In this document: positions 5,864 through 16,221 of the stretch, one piece after another
Layout of the letters: the number at the start of each line of letters is the position of its first letter
Position numbering within the stretch: position 1 is the first letter of the stretch
Assembly: GCF_029888045.1 (NCBI RefSeq)
Contig: NZ_JARXRN010000029.1
Span: 91,150 to 155,149, forward strand
Reading direction: 5' to 3'
DNA: 64,000 bases
DNA from: Luteimonas rhizosphaericola
GTDB lineage: Bacteria > Pseudomonadota > Gammaproteobacteria > Xanthomonadales > Xanthomonadaceae
Program-made: the position numbers and the translations under genes
Notes under the pieces: generated by a model
The model's input: the letters and a program-made list of their open reading frames with translations, nothing else
The model's database searches: none
Told to the model about the DNA's origin: nothing

Positions 5864-7885
5864 ATGAGCACAGTAGTCGATACGATCGCCGGCAAGAGCC
5901 GCGGCCTGGGGAGCAACTTCTGGATCGCGGCGCTGGTCGCCACGCTCGTGATCTTCGGCGCCAACACCGGCTACGCCGGCTGGAAGGCGGCGCGGCTCGG
6001 CGGCGCGAGCACCGCGGCCTCGAGCCTGCAGGTGAACTCGCAGCGCCTGGCCAACCAGGGCCGGGAAGCGGTCGCAGGCGATGCCGCCTCGTTCGCCGCG
6101 TTCAAGGACACCAAGGCGCAGATCGACCGCGACGTCGAGCAGCTCAACGCCAACTTCGGCCAGACCACCGGCGTGGCCGGCCCGATCCAGACGGTGACCC
6201 AGACCTGGACCCCGCTGGCCGCGAGCGCCGAGCAGGTGGCCGCCAGCGAGCAGGCGGTGAGCGGATTCGCCGCCAACGCCGCCCGCTTCAACCAGGCCGT
6301 GCCGCAGCTGCAGGCGCAGCTGGACGAACTGGTGCGCGCGATGTCCTCCAGCGGTTCGCCGGCCTCGCAGGTCTACATCGCCCTGCGCCAGAACGTGCTG
6401 GCGGGCAACATGGCGCGCCGCGTCGCCGAGATCCAGGCCGGCGGCCCGGGCGCATCGATCGCCGGCGACGCGCTGGCGCGCGACGTGGGCGTGTTCGAGC
6501 AGGTGCTCGACGGCCTGCGCGGCGGCGACGAGGCGATGAACGTGCAGGCGCTGTCCAACGGTGGCGCGGTGTCCGCGCTCAACCAGGCGGGCACCCGCTG
6601 GACGGAGATGAAGCAGGACCTGGACGCGATCATCGCCAGCGCACCGGCGCTGTTCCAGGCCCAGGCCGCGTCTGCGGCGCTGACCACCGGCTCGGACAAG
6701 CTGCTGTCCGACAGCCAGGACCTGTTCGCGGCCTTCACCGCCTTCGGCTCGCTGCGCGACACCAGCATCGCCGGCAACGTGTGGATCAGCATCATCTCCG
6801 GCCTGCTCGCGCTGGTGTCGCTGGCCGGCCTGCTCTGGTCGCTCAACCGCGCCCAGCGCAAGCGCTACGAGGACACGATGGAGCTCAACAACCGCAACCA
6901 GGAGGCGATCATGCGCCTGCTGGACGAGATCGGCGCGTTGGCCGAGAACGACCTGACGGTGAAGGCGACGGTCACCGAGGACATGACCGGCGCGATCGCG
7001 GACTCGATCAACTTCGCGGTCGAGAACCTGCGCGACCTGGTGGGCACGATCAACGACACGTCCGCGCAGGTCGCATCCAGCGCGCAGGAAACGCAGGCCA
7101 CCGCCATGCACTTGGCCGAGGCCGCCGAACACCAGGCGCAGGAGATCAACTCCGCCTCCAACCGCATCACCGAGATCGCCTCGAGCATCGACCAGGTCTC
7201 GCGCAACTCCGCCGAATCGGCCGACGTGGCGCAGCGCTCGGTGCAGATCGCGACCAAGGGCGCGGGCGTGGTGCGCGAGACGATCGCGGGCATGGACTCG
7301 ATCCGCGACCAGATCCAGGAAACCTCCAAGCGCATCAAGCGCCTGGGCGAGAGCTCGCAGGAAATCGGCTCGATCGTGGAACTGATCAACGACATCTCCG
7401 AGCAGACCAACATCCTCGCGCTCAACGCGGCCATCCAGGCGGCGTCGGCGGGCGAGGCGGGCCGCGGGTTCGCGGTGGTGGCCGACGAAGTGCAGCGACT
7501 GGCCGAACGCGCGTCCAACGCCACCAAGCGCATCGAGGCGCTGGTGCAGACGATCCAGAGCGATACCAACGAGGCGGTCAGCTCGATGGAGCAGACGACC
7601 TCGGAAGTGGTCGCCGGTGCGCGACTGGCCGAGGACGCGGGCACCGCGCTGGGCGAGATCGAAAGCGTGTCGAACAACCTCGCCGGCCTGATTCTCGGGA
7701 TCTCCACCGCGGCCAAGCAGCAGTCCGCCGCGGCGACCAACATCACCGAGACCATGAACACGATCCAGTCGATCACCGCGCAGACGTCGCAGGGCGCCAA
7801 CCAGACCGCGGAGTCGATCGGAAACCTCGCGCAGCTGGCCGCCAACCTGCGGCGCTCGGTCGCCGACTTCAAGCTGCCGGCCTGA
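5864..7885 (+). CDS. pilJ: type IV pilus chemoreceptor PilJ (methyl-accepting chemotaxis protein)
   Basis: The protein has 673 residues. Transmembrane helix 1 is near residues 13-36 and helix 2 near 306-326, with a helical PilJ-type periplasmic domain of about 270 residues between them. A HAMP-like segment (about 335-390) and an MCP signalling domain follow. The receptor tip is clear in [19 protein letters not shown] and [15 protein letters not shown], which contact CheW and CheA homologues. PilJ senses pilus or surface signals and controls ChpA. The protein ends without a CheR-docking pentapeptide of the NWETF type, which fits the absence of a methyltransferase gene in this cluster. Confidence 0.95.
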
Positions 7886-7964
7886 GCGCGGGACGAGTGC
7901 ACCGGATGAACGCGACGACGACAGGTCGCAGGCGCAGCCACGCCGGCACCCACGGAGGGCGGCG

Positions 7965-10900
7965 ATGACCGCACTGCGCGAAGCCCTCGAGCACACCGCG
8001 CTCGGCTGGATCAAGCCGGAGCTCGACGAGACCCTGCGCCTGGCCAAGGCCGAGCTGGAGGACTACGTCGAGGATCCGGCCGATGTCGGCCGCATGCGGC
8101 TGTGCGCCGGGTACCTGCACCAGGTGCAGGGCACGCTGCGCATGGTCGAGCTCTACGCGCCGGCCATGGTGGCGGAGGAAATGGAGCACGTCGCCCAGGC
8201 GCTGCACGCCGGCACCGTCGGTGATCGCGACGGCGCGTGTGCCGCCCTGCTGCGCGGCATCGTGCTGCTGCCGGACTACCTCGAGCGCCTGCAGAGCGGG
8301 CACCGCGACATCCCGATCGTGCTGCTGCCGCTGCTCAACGAACTGCGCGCCACGCGCGGCGAGAGCGGGCTGAGCGAAAGCGTGCTGTTCTCGCCCGACC
8401 TCGAGCGCCCGCTCCCGGGCGCGATCGCGGGCGCCATGGGGGCCGCGGCGTCCAACGACGACGTCCAGCCGCTGCTCGAAGCGCTGCAGCGCGCGCTCGC
8501 CGGCTGGCAGGACGAGGCTTCGCCCGATGCGCTCGCGCCGCTGCCGGCGGCCGTCGATGCGCTGCTGCCGCACGTGCGCCAGGTTCCGGTCCGCCGGATG
8601 CTGTGGGTCGCATCGAGCGTGGCCCGCGCGCTCGCCGACGGGGCGCTGCCGGCATCGGCCGGCCTGCGCAAGGTGTTCGCCGGTGTCGAGCGCGAGGCCC
8701 GCCGCGGCCTGCTCGACAACGACGGTTTCGCGGAAGTGCGTGGCGAGGCTGCGCAGGAACCCACCCGGCAGCTGCTCTACCACGTCGCCCACCACGAGGA
8801 CGGCAGCCACCCGGCGCTTCAGGAGCTCAAGCAGGTCTTCGAACTCGAAGCCGCGCTGCCCACGCCCTCCGAGCTGGAACACGCGCGCGGCAGCATCAGC
8901 GGGCGCAACCGCGCGCTGCTCGACACCGTGTCCGCCGCGGTCAAGGACGACCTGCTGCACGTCAAGGATGCGCTCGACCTGCACCTGCGCACCGGGTCGG
9001 ACGACCTGTCCTCGCTGCAGCCGCACGCCGAGACGCTGGGCCGGGTGGCCGACACGCTCGGCATGCTCGGCCTGGGCGTGGCGCGCAAGGTGGTGCAGCA
9101 GCAGCGCGACGCGATGCAGCAGATCCTCGAAGGCACGGTCGCCGCGGATGAAGATGCGCTGCTCGACGTCGCCGGCGCGCTGCTCTACGTCGACGCCACG
9201 CTCGACGACCAGGTCGCGCGGCTGGGGGCGGCCGACACCGGCACCGGAGCGGAGAACGAACTGTTCGCCGGCGAGACGCGGCAGGTGGTCGACACCATCG
9301 TGCGCGAGGCGATCGCCAACTTCGTGCAGGCGCGCCAGGCGCTGGTCGCCTTCGTCGAGACCAGCTGGCAGCACGAGCAGCTCTCGGACGTGCCGCGGCT
9401 GCTGGACGAGGTGTCCGGCGCGTTGCGGATGATGGAACTGCCGTTGCCCGCCGACTACCTGGTCGCGGTCAGCCGCTACACCGAGACCGAGCTGATCGGT
9501 CGCCAGCGCGTGCCCAACGGCCGCCAGCTCGACACCCTGGCCGATGCGCTGGCCAGCCTGGAGTATTACCTCGAGGCGCTGCGCGAGCAGCGCGGCAACC
9601 GCGACGAGATCCTCGACATCGCGCGCAACAGCCTCGAATCGCTCGGCTACTGGCCGCTGCCGCAGGCGGCGGAGAAGCCGGCGCCGCCGGCCGAGACGAC
9701 GGTGGCCGCGACGCCTGCAGCGGCGGCCGACGTGCCGGTCGCGCCGGCGACGCCCGTCGACGTCGCCGGGCCGGCGTCGTTGCCCGACGCCGCGCCCGCG
9801 CGCCCGGCCGGCCCGGTGGTGGGCGGGTTCGAGACCGTCGGCGAGGAGATCGACGAGGAGATCCGCGAGGTCTTCCTGGAAGAATTCGCCGAGGAGATCG
9901 ACAACCTCGACGGCCTGCTGCCGCAGTGGCGCGCCCGCCCCGAGGACATGGAGCGCCTGCGCCCGATCCGGCGCGTGTTCCACACACTCAAGGGCAGCGG
10001 GCGCCTGGTCGGCGCGCGCATGCTGGGCGAGTTCAGCTGGAAGATCGAGAACATGCTCAACCGCGTGCTCGACGGGTCGCGCCCGCCGAGCGAGGCGGTG
10101 ATCGCGATGGTCGACCGCGCGTTCTACACCCTGCCCGAACTGCAGTCCGCGCTGCGCGGAGAGCGCGGCCTGACCACCGACCTCGAGCCGCTGCAGGCGG
10201 CCGCCGAGCGCATCGCCGCCGGCGACGAGACGATGCCGCCGGAGACCACGGTCGCGGTCGCGATGGAGCTGTCCGCGCCGGCGACCGACGCCGGCGACAC
10301 CGGCGTGGTCGCGCCCGAGGCCAGCATGGCGCCCGCGCTGGTCGACGCGGAGCCCGTGCCCGCGCCGGTCGAGGTCGCGGACGCCGGCGAGCCGCTGGCC
10401 GCGGTGCCGGCGAAGATCGACGCGCTGCTGCTGGAGATCCTCGACGCCGAGGTCAACGGCCACCTGCAGACCGTCGATACCTGGGTCGCGCGTGCCCGCG
10501 CGGGCGAGGCGGATGGAAGCGACCCGCTGCTGCGCGCGCTGCACACGATGAACGGCGCGTTCGCCATGACCGAGGTTCCGGTCATCAACAGCGTGCTGTC
10601 CCCGGCCGAACACTATGCGCGACGCCTGCTCGCCTCGCATGCCAGCGCGACGCCGGAAGGGATCGAGGCGCTGGCCGACCTGTCGGTCGTGGTGCGCGAC
10701 ACGGTCGAGACGCTGAAGCAGGCGAACCCGGCGCTGCCGCTGCAGGATGCGCTGGCCGCGCGCCTGGCGGCGCTGCGCGACAGCCTGCCGGAGGCCGCGA
10801 GCGGCCTGGCGGCGCTGGTGGATGCGCAAGGGCTGGAGGAAGCGGGAGCGATGCCGGACGCGCCGCAGGCGCCGGAAGGCATCGCGCTCACCACGGACGA

Positions 10901-13900
10901 TCTCACTGCGTACGCCGGCTTCGTGGATGCGGCGCTGGTGGATGCGGTGGATGCCGGTCCGGCCGCGGAGCGTGCCGGCGACGCAGCCCCTGACGTCCAA
11001 CGGCTCGAAGCCGAGCGCTTCGAAGCCGAACGTCTCGAAGCCGAGCGTCTCGAAGCCGAGCGTCTCGAAGCCGAACGTCTTGAAGCCGAACGTCTCGAAG
11101 CCGAACGTCTTGAAGCCGAACGTCTTGAAGCCGAACGTCTCGAAGCCGAACGTCTCGAAGCCGAACGTCTCGAAGCCGAACGTGTCGAAGCCGAACGTGT
11201 CGAAGCCGAACGTGTCGAAGCCGAACGTCTCGAGGCCGAGCGTCTCGAAGCCGAGCGTCTCGAGGCCGAACGTCTCGAGGCCGAACGTCTCGAAGCCGAG
11301 CGCCTCGAAGCCGAGCGTCTCGAAGCCGAGCGTCTCGAGGCCGAGCGTCTCGAAGCCGAGCGTCTCGAAGCCGAACGTCTCGAGGCAGAGCGTCTCGAAG
11401 CGGAGCGTCTCGAAGCGGAGCGTCTCGAAGCGGAACGTCTCGAAGCGGAACGTCTCGAAGCGGAACGTCTCGAAGCGGAACGTCTCGAAGCGGAGCGCGT
11501 TGAAGCCGAGCGTCTCGAAGCGGAACGAGGTGAAGCAGGAAGCCTCGATGCAGATCGCCTGGACGCCGAGCGTCCCGACGCCGACCACGTGGACGCAGAT
11601 CTCGCCGCGAATGCGGGCCTTGCGCTGGTGCGAGGCGGCGAGTCGGCGGACGCCGGAACCGGCGACGCCGAGTACCCGGCCGCGCAGCGTCTGGAAGCCG
11701 AGCTTCTGGACGCCGAGCGGATCGAAGCCGAACGCTTCGAGATCGAGCGCGCCGAAGCCGATCGTCTTGAGGCCGAACGTCTTGAAACCGAGCGTCTCGA
11801 ACTCGAGCGGCTTGAAGCGGAGCGTCTCGAGGCGGAGCGTCTCGAAGCAGAACGGACCGAGGCCGGGCGCGCTGAAGCGGCACGCGTGGAGGCCGAACGC
11901 TTCGAGGCAGAGCGTGCGGAACTCGAGCGGCAGGCATCGGAAGCGCAGGCGTACGGAGAGGAGTCCGCCGCGGATGGCGCCGATGGTGTTGCGGACGCCG
12001 ACACCGACACCGAATCCGAATCCGAACCTGAAGCCGAAAGCGAAGCAGAGGCCGAAGCCGAAGCCGAAGCCGACGTCCCCGTCGACACCGCGGTCGCGGC
12101 CTTGCTCGCACGCGTGCTGGCCAAGGCGGATCCGGACGAGGCGCTGGACGTGTCGCGCCTGGACGAGGAACTGGTCGACATCTTCGTGGAAGAGGCCGGC
12201 GACCTGCTCGACCACTCCGACGGTCTGCTCGCCCAGCTTCGCCAGTCGCCCGACGCCCGCGAACCGCTGATCGGGCTGCAGCGCGACCTGCACACCATCA
12301 AGGGCGGTGCGCGCATGGCGGGCGTGTTCACCGTCGGCGAGCTCGGCCACGCGATGGAGTCGCTGCTCGAGGCGGTGGTCGAACAGCGCTGCGAGCTCGA
12401 CCGCACCGGCATCGGCCTGCTCGAGGGCGGCTTCGACCGCCTGCATGCGATGATCACGCGGATCGGCGAACGGCGCGCGATCGCCATGCCGGACGCGCTG
12501 ATCGACGCCTTCAATGCGCTCGCCCGCGGCCGCTCGCTGCTTGCCGAGAACGAAGCCGCCGCCGCGGCCGAGGCCGCGCCGCCGCCGCCCAAGGTCGAGC
12601 TCGCGCCGCTGTCGGGACCGATCGTCGAGCTGGGCGCGGAGGACGACACCACTATCCGCGCGCCGCAGGAGCAGGTGCGCATCCGCGCAGACCTGCTCGA
12701 CCGGCTGGTGAACTACGCCGGCGAGGTGGCGATCTACCGGGCCCGGCTGGAACAGCAGCTGGGCGCGTTCCGTGCCGCGATGAACGAGATGGAGCAGACC
12801 AACGCGCGCCTGCGCGACCAGCTGCGCCGCCTCGACATCGAAACCGAGGCCCAGATCATCGCGCGCTACCAGCGCGAGGGCGACGCCGGCGACGTCAGCT
12901 TCGATCCGCTCGAACTCGACCGTTTCTCCACCCTGCAGCAGCTTTCGCGCGGCCTCGGCGAATCCGCCGCGGACATGACCAGCCTGCAGCAGACGCTGGA
13001 CGACCTGACCCGCCAGTACGAGACGCTGCTGCTGCAACAGTCGCGCGTGAGCTCGGAGCTGCAGGAAGGCCTGATGCGCACGCGCATGGTGCCGTTCGAC
13101 GCGCTGGTGCCGCGCCTGCGCCGGGTGCTGCGCCAGGCCGCCCAGGAAACCGGCAAGCAGGTGCAGCTGCGGCTCGACGGCAGCCAGGGCGAGCTCGACC
13201 GCAACGTGCTCGAACGCATGACCGCTCCGCTGGAGCATATTTTGCGCAACGCGGTCGCGCACGGGATCGAGTCGCCCGAGCGCCGGCGCAAGGCGAAGAA
13301 GTCCGAGGAAGGCACGGTCCGGATCGCGGTCCGCCGCGAAGGCTCCGAAGTGGTGCTCGAGGTCGGCGACGACGGCTCGGGCCTGGATCGCGGCGCGATC
13401 CGGCGCCGGGCCGAGGAACGCGGGCTGATCCGCGAGGGCGCGGTGCTGACCGACGGCGACCTCGACCAGCTGATCTTCGAGCCCGGCTTCTCCACCGCCG
13501 ACGAGGTCAGCCGGCTGGCGGGCCGTGGCGTCGGCATGGACGTGGTCGCGAGCGAGGTGCGCCAGCTCGGCGGTTCGCTCGACATCGCCACCCGGCGCGA
13601 ACAGGGCACCACGTTCACCCTGCGCCTGCCGCAGACGCTCGCGGTCACCCAGGCGGTGTTCGTGCGCATCGGCGAGACCCAGTTCGCGGTGCCGATCGCT
13701 TCGGTGCGCGGCGTGGGCCGGATCGAACGCGGGCGCCTGGGCGAGGCCGACGCCACGTACGCGTACGGCGGCGAGGACTACGGCCTGCACGACCTCGGCA
13801 TGCTGGTCGGCCAGGGGCCGGCGCGCGCCGAAGGCCACCTGCAGATGCCGCTGCTGCTGGTGCGCTCGGGCGAACTGCGCGCCGCGGTCGCGGTCGACGA

Positions 13901-14471
13901 GATCATCGGCAGCCGCGAGATCGTAGTGAAGCCGGTCGGTCCGCAGGTCGCCTCGATCCCCGGCATCTTCGGCGCCACCATCATGGGCGACGGCAGCGTC
14001 GTGGTGATCCTCGACGTCGCGCCGCTCGTGCGCCGCCACGCGGTGCTGCCGCGCGAAGCGGGGCCGTCGGTGCCGGTCGAACAGCGCCCGGTGCCGCTGG
14101 TGATGGTGGTCGACGACTCGGTGACCATGCGCAAGGTCACCGGCCGCGTGCTCGAGCGCCACAACTTCGAGGTCATCACCGCAAAGGACGGGCTCGATGC
14201 GCTGGAGCGCATGGACGAACGCGTGCCCGATCTGATGCTGCTCGACATCGAGATGCCGCGCATGGACGGCTACGAGCTGGCCAGGCACATGAAGGCCGAT
14301 CCGCGCCTGCGCGACGTGCTGATCATGATGATCACCTCGCGTACCGGCGAGAAGCACCGCCAGCGCGCGTTCGACCTCGGCGTGGACCGCTACCTGGGCA
14401 AGCCGTACCAGGAACCCGAGCTGATGCGCAACGTCAACGAACTGCTGAAGGTGCCGCATGGCCGCGACTGA
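7965..14471 (+). CDS. chpA: giant hybrid chemosensory histidine kinase ChpA (PilL)
   Basis: This 2168-residue CheA-like kinase belongs to the type IV pilus chemosensory system. Canonical histidine phosphotransfer sites are H673 ([12 protein letters not shown]), H860 ([11 protein letters not shown]) and H1443 ([12 protein letters not shown]); a divergent Hpt-like domain surrounds H52. Between the second and third lies an unusual E/A/R-rich region, about residues 1013-1322, with 51 pentapeptide repeats in two blocks. Dimerisation and kinase domains follow (N-box [15 protein letters not shown] from residue 1758, then DDGSGLD and GRGVGMDVV). A CheW-like domain (about 1890-2030) and a C-terminal receiver with phospho-acceptor D2094 complete it. 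Pseudomonas ChpA has the same overall plan with more Hpt domains. The last 14 bases overlap chpB. Confidence 0.95.
11004..11528 (+). repeat. 15-bp tandem repeat array inside chpA, block 1 (35 units, LEAER)
   Basis: Thirty-five contiguous in-frame 15-bp units encode (L/F/V)EAER, almost all LEAER, at residues 1014-1188. The typical unit is CTCGAAGCCGAACGT. Synonymous variants occur in runs: three successive GTC units around 11178-11222, and a run with GCG in place of GCC near 11400-11490. Such runs indicate recent slippage or unequal exchange. The encoded protein alternates acidic and basic residues as in a single alpha helix or coiled coil. The antisense translation, a repeated FETFGFETL pattern, is a shadow. 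Confidence 0.97.
11691..11930 (+). repeat. 15-bp tandem repeat array inside chpA, block 2 (16 degenerate units)
   Basis: Sixteen 15-bp units at residues 1243-1322 follow the pattern xExER with more diversity than block 1 ([40 protein letters not shown] and others). It is separated from block 1 by a 54-residue linker that still shows five-residue spacing ([20 protein letters not shown]). Block 2 therefore looks like an older part of the same array. Confidence 0.92.
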
Positions 14472-16221
14472 GGCCACGCCGCGCGTCGCGCTGCTGGCGC
14501 GCGCCGGCGAAGCCTGCGAACGCATCAGCGGTGCGCTGCGCGAGGCCGGCGCCGAAGTGGTGCTGGTGGCCGATCCGCTGCAGGCCGATCCGGACGACGT
14601 GCGCCACGCCACGCCGCAGGCGATCCTGGTGGCGCTCGATCCCGCGATCGAGGACGCGATCGACCGTTACGCCGACGTGCTCGCCGATCCGGATTACATG
14701 GTGATCTTCGAGGAGGCCGACCAGGCCGCGCAGCGCACCGGCTGGGACGCGGCGCGCTGGCTGCGCCACCTGTCGGCGAAGCTGCACCGTCACCATGACG
14801 TCCTGCCGGCAGGCGCGGAGGCCGACGAGGCGGTCCATCCCGTGCCGGGCCCGCTGCCCGCGCCGCCCGCGCCGGTGGACTTCGACCAGGCGATCGCCGA
14901 GGTCACCGGTCAGGCGCAGCAGCTTGCCGACGAAGTGCCGAACGACGGCGGCATCGCGGGCATGACCGGTCTCGGGGATGCGGCGCAGGACCTCATGGCC
15001 GCGCCGGAAGGCGAACTCTCCATCGCCGACGCAGGCGACGGCGCGCCGGCGTGGAACCCCGGCGAGGGCACCCACGCGGGTCCCCCGGTGAACGCACCGG
15101 ACGATTTCGCGGCCGGGGACGACGGGCTCGACCTGACCGCGCTGGCGCTGGAGCTGGAACTGGACGACGCCGCACCGCCGCGGCGCGCATCGACCGGGGA
15201 CGACGCGTCAGCGCCCGCTTCCCTCTCGCTCGACGCGATGTCGTTCACGCTGTCGGACGAACACGCCGCCGAGATCGACGCCGGCGACGGCGGCGCGCTG
15301 GACGAGCTCGCGTTCGATCCGGAGCGGTTCATGCGCGCCGGCGACGACGCCGCCACGCCCGAGGGCATCGAGGAATTCCTGGCCGCGCAGATGCGCCAGT
15401 CCGAATCCGCATCCGCCTCGGACACGGGGTTCGACCAACGGATGGCCCGGCCTGCGGGCGACGCCCCGGCTCCCGAAGCCGCGGACGCACCTGCGCCGCG
15501 CATCGATTTTTCCGGCCTGAGCCTGCTGGACGACGAGGCCGATGCCGTGCCCGCATCGGCGCCCGAAGCCGCCGCGGTGCGCGCGCCGGCCTACGACCTC
15601 GAAGCGCTCGGCGGTGGCCTGTCGCTGGCCGATCCCGACAGCTACGGCCACGGTCCCGTCCGCGGCGTGGTGCTGATCGAGGCCGGGCTGGGCGGGCCGG
15701 ACGCGGTGCGCCAACTGCTGGCGGCGATTCCCGAGGGTTTCAGCAAACCGATCCTGATTCGCCTGTCGCTCGAAGGCGGCCGCTACGACCGGCTGGTCAA
15801 GCAGATGACGCGCGCCACATCGGCACCCGTGAGCGTGGCCGAGGCCGGCCAGGTCGCCCAGCCGGGCAGCATCTATTTCGTGCCCCCCGGGCTGGGCCTG
15901 CGCGCGGGCTCGGGCTGGAAGTTCGATGCCTCCGCGGCGCTCGAGCCCGATGCCCTGCCGGCCGACGACAGCGCCGTCCTGTTCCTCAGCGGCGCCGACG
16001 CGTCACTGGTGCCCGCCGTCAGCCAGGCCCGCTGGAGCGGCGGGCTGGTGCTGGGCCAGACGCCAGACGAGGGTTGCTACGACCCGGCGGCCGCGCAGGC
16101 CGCGATCGCCGCCGGCGCCGCCCACGGCACGCCCGCCGCGCTGGCGGCCAGGCTGCTGGCGCGCTGGCCGGTGGCCGGCGTGTCGCCCGATCCCGATTCC
16201 AGCGGACTGCTGCAGCCATGA
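14458..16221 (+). CDS. chpB: ChpB-like protein with a degenerate, probably inactive CheB methylesterase domain
   Basis: The protein has 587 residues. The N-terminal 120 ([20 protein letters not shown], then a Rossmann-like stretch) resemble a receiver without a phospho-acceptor. An acidic Ala/Asp-rich linker of about 270 residues follows, then a CheB-like C-terminal domain from about residue 400. That domain aligns along [31 protein letters not shown] and [13 protein letters not shown]. The CheB catalytic Ser (in GASTGG) is Gly410 here, and the His of QHMPPG is not present. It starts inside the end of chpA and its stop overlaps chpC. It may act as a scaffold rather than a demethylase; the CheB assignment rests on my by-eye alignment. 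Confidence 0.72.

Follow-up and report, generated by a model that had tools for sequence, protein, structure and literature searches.

Single alpha-helix (SAH) domains, also described as ER-K or charged single alpha-helix (CSAH) domains and exemplified by the myosin-6 lever and by 30-nm ER/K linkers, form long helices between globular domains: they are rich in Glu and Arg, carry salt bridges at i+3 and i+4, and lack a hydrophobic seam. That SAHs occur in bacteria generally has already been stated in print (PMC5378345, accessible part). Here we describe an array of five-residue repeats, most of them LEAER, between the second and third phosphotransfer (Hpt) domains of ChpA, the very large kinase of the Pil-Chp chemosensory system, which steers pilus-driven movement, in Luteimonas rhizosphaericola. 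The window analyzed is a stretch of 64,000 nucleotides (NZ_JARXRN010000029.1, positions 91,150 to 155,149), and coordinates below refer to it. The array shares the SAH features just listed, the long helix as a prediction, but differs from known SAH/ER-K domains in being a strict, Arg-only, five-residue tandem repeat in 15-bp units, with a net negative charge and Leu at every fifth residue, and in residing in a bacterial chemosensory kinase where unit number depends strongly on the species.

The kinase itself resembles described ChpA/PilL proteins such as that of Pseudomonas aeruginosa: it is of the CheA type, has several Hpt domains along with CheW and receiver domains, and is encoded next to genes for PilJ-, CheW- and CheB-like proteins. 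While eight or nine phosphotransfer domains are given for P. aeruginosa ChpA, the protein studied here has three Pfam Hpts, and its Hpt2-Hpt3 interval spans about 580 residues, of which about 280 are predicted to be helical. The abundance of phosphotransfer domains in Pil-Chp kinases is called poorly understood (PMC12632253, accessible part). The word "repeat" appears nowhere in the accessible main text of two articles on CheA architecture and the Pil-Chp system (PMC10542144; PMC12632253), and the role of long inter-Hpt linkers in these kinases is, as far as we have seen in such sources, not addressed. The first-pass annotation knew of no such array in ChpA/PilL, and we likewise found no description of it by title or abstract among the listed open-licence papers on SAHs, ChpA/PilL and Lysobacter twitching. 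A looser parallel is offered by periscope proteins, in which near-identical tandem repeats form a rod of variable length that spaces functional ends (PMC8201768, accessible part). Those are surface adhesins built of tandem folded domains in numbers that vary between strains, whereas ChpA is a kinase with cytoplasmic domains and a five-residue helical unit whose number varies between species, which places it outside the periscope definition.

The repeat array of ChpA

The array consists of two blocks within chpA. Block 1 (11004-11528, amino acids (aa) 1014-1188) comprises 35 contiguous in-frame pentads: 30 LEAER, four VEAER and one FEAER. Tandem Repeats Finder (TRF) reports it at 10999-11527 with a period of 15, 35.3 copies, 91% match and 0% indels, and a second, degenerate array at 11686-11878. 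Block 2 (11691-11930, aa 1243-1322) holds 16 degenerate pentads. Over aa 1013-1322, 77% of residues are identical to the residue five positions on, when the highest value in 2,000 shuffles is 28%. In block 1, 105 of 175 residues are Glu or Arg, 17% are Leu and 20% Ala; Leu, Val and Phe together make up 20%, and the net charge is -35, or -1 per unit. The 35 contiguous units, the 16 degenerate units ending at 11930 and the in-frame position between the second and third Hpt (here from Pfam, motif position and an AlphaFold2 model) had all been proposed in the first-pass annotation and are borne out. Its further claim, that the 54-residue break between the blocks (11529-11690) keeps a five-residue beat, stands for about the first five pentad-like units only: the rest is rich in Gly, Asp and Ala and has lost the beat, and block 2 begins 229 residues after the start of block 1 and is therefore 4 residues out of phase.

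The unit number of 35 is that of a 29-contig assembly and is provisional. The array as such cannot be put down to assembly error: of the 151 family genomes with a match, described below, 30 are single-contig assemblies (hand count). In the organism's own genome (G000) all four array matches, on either strand, lie in the chpA array region. We also considered a mobile or foreign origin, and nothing points to a mobile element: there was no phage match, and none of three partial plasmid matches covered more than 80% of the query. Several assemblies have contigs that begin or end within the array, namely L151 (G165:C97), L152 (G100:C15), G004:C26, G006:C108, G145:C5, G155:C24 and G230:C295; assemblies thus break chpA there, and annotations can be expected often to show a truncated gene.

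The complete gene (7965-14471, plus strand, as are all features given here) encodes a 2168-aa CheA-type hybrid kinase, as read from its open reading frame, translation and Pfam domains. Its Pfam content (three Hpt stretches, H-kinase_dim, HATPase_c, CheW and the receiver domain Response_reg) and its CheW-, PilJ/MCP-, CheB- and CheW-type neighbours identify it as the Pil-Chp kinase (ChpA/PilL). Hpt1 (9858-10130, aa 632-722, motif HTLKG) is the best Pfam Hpt stretch. Hpt2 (10422-10718, aa about 820-918, HTMNG), which counts among the three Pfam stretches, was placed by its motif and by helices H10-H108 of the AlphaFold2 fragment model. Between block 2 and Hpt3 lies an acidic low-complexity tail (11931-12110), with a predicted local distance difference test score (pLDDT) below 50 over model residues 526-565. 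Hpt3 (12168-12455, aa 1402-1497, HTIKG) was located by Pfam on the fragment (residues 592-687), which on its own yields two Pfam Hpt stretches, and the kinase core with H-kinase_dim, HATPase_c, CheW and receiver domain occupies 12669-14435 (aa 1569-2157).

Pfam DUF2807 (PF10988) scores 28.4 bits on 11004-11930, against a curated cut-off of 24.2; we judge this a low-complexity false match, the AlphaFold2 model being helical, and such an above-cut-off score could mislabel array-bearing proteins. NCBIfam gave no match for the array segment, and a phmmer search of block 1 against solved structures returned nine uninformative matches up to E 10, the best to collagen VI alpha-3 (3.5e-6). On the opposite strand, open frames lie over chpA at 7869-14612 (2247 aa), 10613-12682 (689 aa) and 10903-12111 (402 aa), the longest showing a pentad pattern opposite the array. 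They are probably by-products of GC-rich codon usage, because the ratio of non-synonymous to synonymous differences (pN/pS) between units fits the chpA frame best (0.07, versus 0.12 in minus frame 1).

Predicted helix and its charge pattern

We modeled the Hpt2-to-Hpt3 fragment with AlphaFold2, using an alignment of four rows and taking the best of the five models (mean pLDDT 70.9, predicted template modelling score (pTM) 0.35; model residue r is aa 810+r). The model shows an unbroken helix over aa 1013-1194 (H203-384), enclosing block 1, with mean pLDDT by tens of 81-91 over model residues 211-370 and lower values at both ends, and a second helix over aa 1237-1336 (H427-526), enclosing block 2, with 83-92 over residues 431-520. 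The break between them is not confidently structured: pLDDT falls under 50 at model residues 383-402 and again at 408-425. As a control, we modeled the corresponding fragment of the array-free ChpA of Stenotrophomonas rhizophila (7-row alignment): both Hpts fold, while residues ~134-569 are mostly below pLDDT 50.

The order of residues in the unit offers a chemical rationale for such a helix. Glu-Arg pairs in PDB helices rank as E>R(+3) > R>E(+4) > E>R(+4) > R>E(+3) (PMC5347031). In an endless LEAER repeat Glu stands three residues before and four residues after every Arg, and the two less favoured spacings do not occur. Of the 12 possible circular arrangements of L, A, E, E and R, only LEAER and AELER use just the two best spacings. 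We counted such pairs across 24 array linkers totalling 8,466 residues, three of which are truncated at contig ends: E>R(+3) and R>E(+4) both occur at 2.93 times the shuffled expectation, E>R(+4) at 0.13 times and R>E(+3) at 0.12 times; because the array is periodic, these four values amount to a single observation. The salt-bridge score reaches z 4.6 in block 1 and z 2.9 in block 2. Periodicity analysis finds no heptad or hendecad seam in block 1: hydrophobic power is 0.00 at 2/7, 3/11 and 4/15, and heptad occupancy is flat at 0.30 in every register.

Since LEAER uses only the two most favoured Glu-Arg spacings and no heptad seam is present, the best reading of block 1 is a single alpha-helix, likely a monomeric one. 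As a helix it would have a contour of 26.2 nm, in keeping with the figure of about 26 nm first put forward, and block 2 one of ~12 nm. The persistence length of SAHs is ~15 nm (PMC5347031), so that block 1 would measure about 1.7 persistence lengths. The root-mean-square (rms) distance between the helix ends would be ~20 nm for block 1 and ~11 nm for block 2. The helix and coiled-coil predictions that the first-pass annotation proposed thus support its helical claim, through AlphaFold2 helices over both blocks beside a disordered control, salt-bridge spacing and the absent seam, but its word "rigid" overstates a spacer that would be semi-flexible. We class the array as SAH-like and regard SAH membership as provisional: block 1 has opposite charges at i+3 and i+4 and no hydrophobic seam, and departs from the few hydrophobics and near-balanced charge that are typical of many SAHs without strictly defining them.

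Distribution and evolution among relatives

The first-pass annotation had suggested comparing chpA across related genomes; the comparison shows an array widespread in the family, with a repeat number that varies between species. At E<=0.001, a search of 41 genomes (the organism's own and 40 relatives) matched 26. Besides the own genome these are 20 of the 24 others of the same genus and five of 16 outside the genus, the latter weak (E 2.3e-10 or worse). Seventeen of those 24 congeners carry a full array of at least 10 units and three have contigs broken at or inside it (G004, G006 and G010); G007 has no upstream sequence, and G008, G011 and G024 are without an array. In a family sample, the array is matched at E<=1e-12 by at least 151 of 297 genomes, which belong to 30 of the 54 genera sampled; the count is a lower bound given that the best 11 first-look candidates per genome were scored and that G010, with array remnants, counts as a miss. 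The ChpA core was found in 291 of the 297 genomes at E<=1e-170. Of 112 listed array genomes, 91 also have a listed core hit and 21 do not. In 90 of these 91 the array is in frame with the core on the same strand, at 523-1480 nt upstream; the contigs of the exception are broken inside the array. Named loci from other species numbered 585, and the best 80 of them (77 with a readable ChpA frame, three without) include xEAER arrays in Lysobacter maris, L. psychrotolerans and one metagenome-assembled genome (MAG), and none in the Xanthomonas, Stenotrophomonas and Pseudoxanthomonas rows. Array-bearing relatives with this same kinase form a length series of 12 to 67 xExE(R/K) units between Hpt2 and Hpt3, and TRF periods range from 15 to 180 nt, higher-order period and unit number both differing between species. 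The array is therefore not peculiar to the genome in which it was noticed.

The units are under purifying selection. Pairwise comparison of the 35 units of block 1 counts 903 synonymous and 194 non-synonymous changes (pS 0.415, pN 0.029, pN/pS 0.069, a description rather than a test, as the comparisons are not independent), and amino-acid changes fall at unit position 1 only. We extended this to other species by counting departures from each species' own commonest codon in 14 of 15 arrays to which TRF assigns zero indels (G010, with one unit, was left out). Synonymous and non-synonymous departures at unit positions 1 to 5 number 50/160, 111/9, 115/33, 131/44 and 149/13. Among the charged positions, conservation is least strict at position 4, where 21 of the 44 changes come from G003 alone, with its IEADR units. 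With all 24 arrays, indels included, the corresponding dN-like/dS-like ratios are 1.62, 0.10, 0.38, 0.09 and 0.20; we prefer the zero-indel set because arrays with indels lose phase, which inflates non-synonymous counts. Separate per-species pN/pS values run from 0.08 to 1.29, the top value belonging to G002 (9 units); they were not used as evidence, since the underlying blocks were chosen partly by residue, which introduces bias. The pattern that is kept is x-E-a-E-R: charged positions are mostly conserved, and the hydrophobic position drifts.

On a tree of ChpA cores, made by a quick method with no bootstrap and with seven long-branch or duplicate rows left out, the array lineages group with the array-free Xanthomonas/Stenotrophomonas group, in an order that the tree leaves open. 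The array-free clade of G008, G011 and G024 is nested inside an array clade (Shimodaira-Hasegawa-like approximate likelihood ratio test, SH-aLRT, 85-100) and appears to have lost the array. Four further lineages outside the main group carry pentad or decad arrays before Hpt3. In G165 (L151), Hpt2 is flanked by xEAER arrays, one of 15 units on its N-terminal side and one of 25 units in the Hpt2-Hpt3 interval; its sister G072, 84% identical, is without an array, and recombination could conceivably have brought in the short array of G165. G050 (L150) has 33 I/V-EAEA-type units, 29 of them exact, and its sister G099, 89% identical in the core, is likewise without one. ChpA of Dyella sp. S184 has an AAAEK/AAAEQ array, and the MAG REEB6 has an LAAEKAEQER array on a contig that does not reach Hpt2. 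Like the main array, the linkers of S184, REEB6 and G050 are helix-prone repeats of period 5 or 10 before Hpt3, but they use other residues and stand apart from the main group on the tree. When all pentad and decad arrays are scored as one state, at least six changes are needed on 65 rows. In locus L056 (G028:C1:2100124-2107716), a 1095-aa ChpA-core frame reads upstream into a long GGGRR/TGGGRR-like repeat followed by a VVAEEP repeat, which looks like a change of frame within a repeat array.

What the array may have replaced can be gauged from 60 of 68 ChpA rows that could be scored; the other eight are G004, G006 and G010 (contig breaks), G028, G030, G040, L086 and L093, and G007 and G032 have no usable upstream sequence. 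The mean Hpt2-Hpt3 distance is 529 aa in 21 array linkers versus 475 aa in 39 others (standard deviations 84 and 161), a set that includes both G029 and L096, whose cores are identical, and L087, L090 and G035, whose linkers are helix-prone without xExER. Net charge per residue is -0.19 in array linkers versus -0.24 in the others, Pro and Gly together make up 5% versus 12%, and helix propensity (Pace-Scholtz scale) is better in array linkers, at 0.39 versus 0.60 kcal/mol. Since the two kinds of linker are alike in length and acidity, while array linkers have less Pro and Gly and better helix propensity, it seems that a helical acidic spacer has taken the place of a disordered acidic one of similar residue number.

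A proposed spacer and competing explanations

We think it somewhat more probable than otherwise that the array is a slippage-built, semi-flexible single-helix spacer that replaced a disordered acidic linker and lowers contact between the distal Hpts and the kinase core. Slippage of 15-bp repeats, or unequal exchange, would have grown and varied the array within an older acidic disordered linker, and selection on the E-x-E-R pattern would then have retained it. With Ala enriched in the backbone, salt bridges from Glu(i) to Arg(i+3) and from Arg(i) to Glu(i+4) may hold the units helical, while the five-residue period would distribute Leu evenly around the helix, and therefore leave no coiled-coil seam. 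A block 1 helix of ~26 nm, a flexible break and a block 2 helix of ~12 nm would connect the Hpt1/Hpt2 part to Hpt3 and the core, and could keep Hpt1 and Hpt2, with their binding partners, roughly 20-30 nm away from it. Hpt3, adjoining the core, would be the direct substrate, and phosphotransfer to the distal Hpts might be infrequent or might pass by way of the receiver domain or PilG/PilH. By analogy, partners tethered by ER/K helices of 10-30 nm see their effective concentration fall from 10 uM to 100 nM (PMC5552854, accessible part), and it is plausible that the array sets the Hpt-kinase distance, with a presumed effect on phosphoflow. The very different array lengths among relatives suggest that it is probably an adjustable molecular spacer. 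A stronger version, which we put forward only tentatively, is a length-tuned ruler: 15-bp slippage would shift the helix in 0.75-nm steps, by which lineages would set the effective concentration of distal Hpts at the core, and helix-prone spacers would have been invented independently several times at the same place.

A number of observations weigh against this reading. AlphaFold2 readily renders repetitive Ala/Glu/Arg/Leu sequence as helix, and with this bias, a 4-row alignment and a pTM of 0.35 the model is no proof of a single helix. Every LEAER unit contains one repulsive Glu-Glu(+3) pair, and acid-acid pairs in the 24 array linkers occur at 1.17 times the shuffled expectation at +3 (0.25 times at +4). 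The hydrophobic share of block 1 is 20% and its charge is unbalanced, compared with ~9.6% hydrophobics in myosin SAHs, and 4+4 charge blocks are the most stable, two-residue charge repeats not being helical (PMC5378345, accessible part). The G050 array, also of period five, has no Arg or Lys in 165 residues, so salt bridges are no general rule for arrays at the site before Hpt3. Finally, G008, G011 and G024 have full-length chpA frames (1971-2010 aa) without the array, which makes the helix dispensable there, and pentad-free linkers contain other acidic simple repeats, ETEA tetrads in G072 (L155) and TD and EV dipeptides in G008, G024 and G011 (L051-L053), which implies that slippage alone makes repeats at this site.

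These last points also favour a neutral or nearly neutral repeat expansion in a long, acidic, tolerant and slippage-prone linker, with GAA/GCC/CGT-rich 15-bp units and a helix that has no specific job. One nested clade does without the array, species differ in unit number and in higher-order period, linker acidity and length are alike with or without the array, and selection merely against stops or charge loss could yield part of the conservation pattern. Neutral repeats would decay, however, whereas here pN/pS is 0.07 and the charged positions are mostly kept over 14 zero-indel arrays, and the arrays extend over more than half of the family genomes and genera sampled; we consider this explanation rather unlikely. 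An acidic charged rod that binds a partner such as FimV, PilG or another polar protein, with spacing secondary, would fit the similar acidity of array and array-less linkers, and SAH regions sometimes mediate protein binding (PMC5347031); yet unit position 1 drifts among L, V, I and A and unit number varies widely, and we regard such a role as improbable. CheA-type kinases dimerise, and the arrays of two protomers, with 17% Leu and 20% Ala in block 1, might accordingly pair as a coiled coil or helical bundle that serves as a dimerisation or signalling rod. The seam analysis makes this improbable: hydrophobic power vanishes at the heptad and hendecad periods, the 15-residue registers are uneven, as is inevitable for a five-residue repeat, but their three Leu face different sides at 3.75 residues per turn, and a net charge of -35 disfavours close contact. 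Arg-rich designed SAHs did aggregate (PMC5347031), an observation that speaks for pairing and against a monomeric helix.

If the single-helix spacer proves correct, a widespread SAH-like spacer would join the bacterial signalling repertoire, together with a five-residue, Arg-only helix code confined to the two best Glu-Arg spacings. The G050 array is a natural test of whether Arg matters, and with the natural length series, and array-free sister lineages as controls, it becomes possible to test directly how the distance between domains affects phosphoflow.

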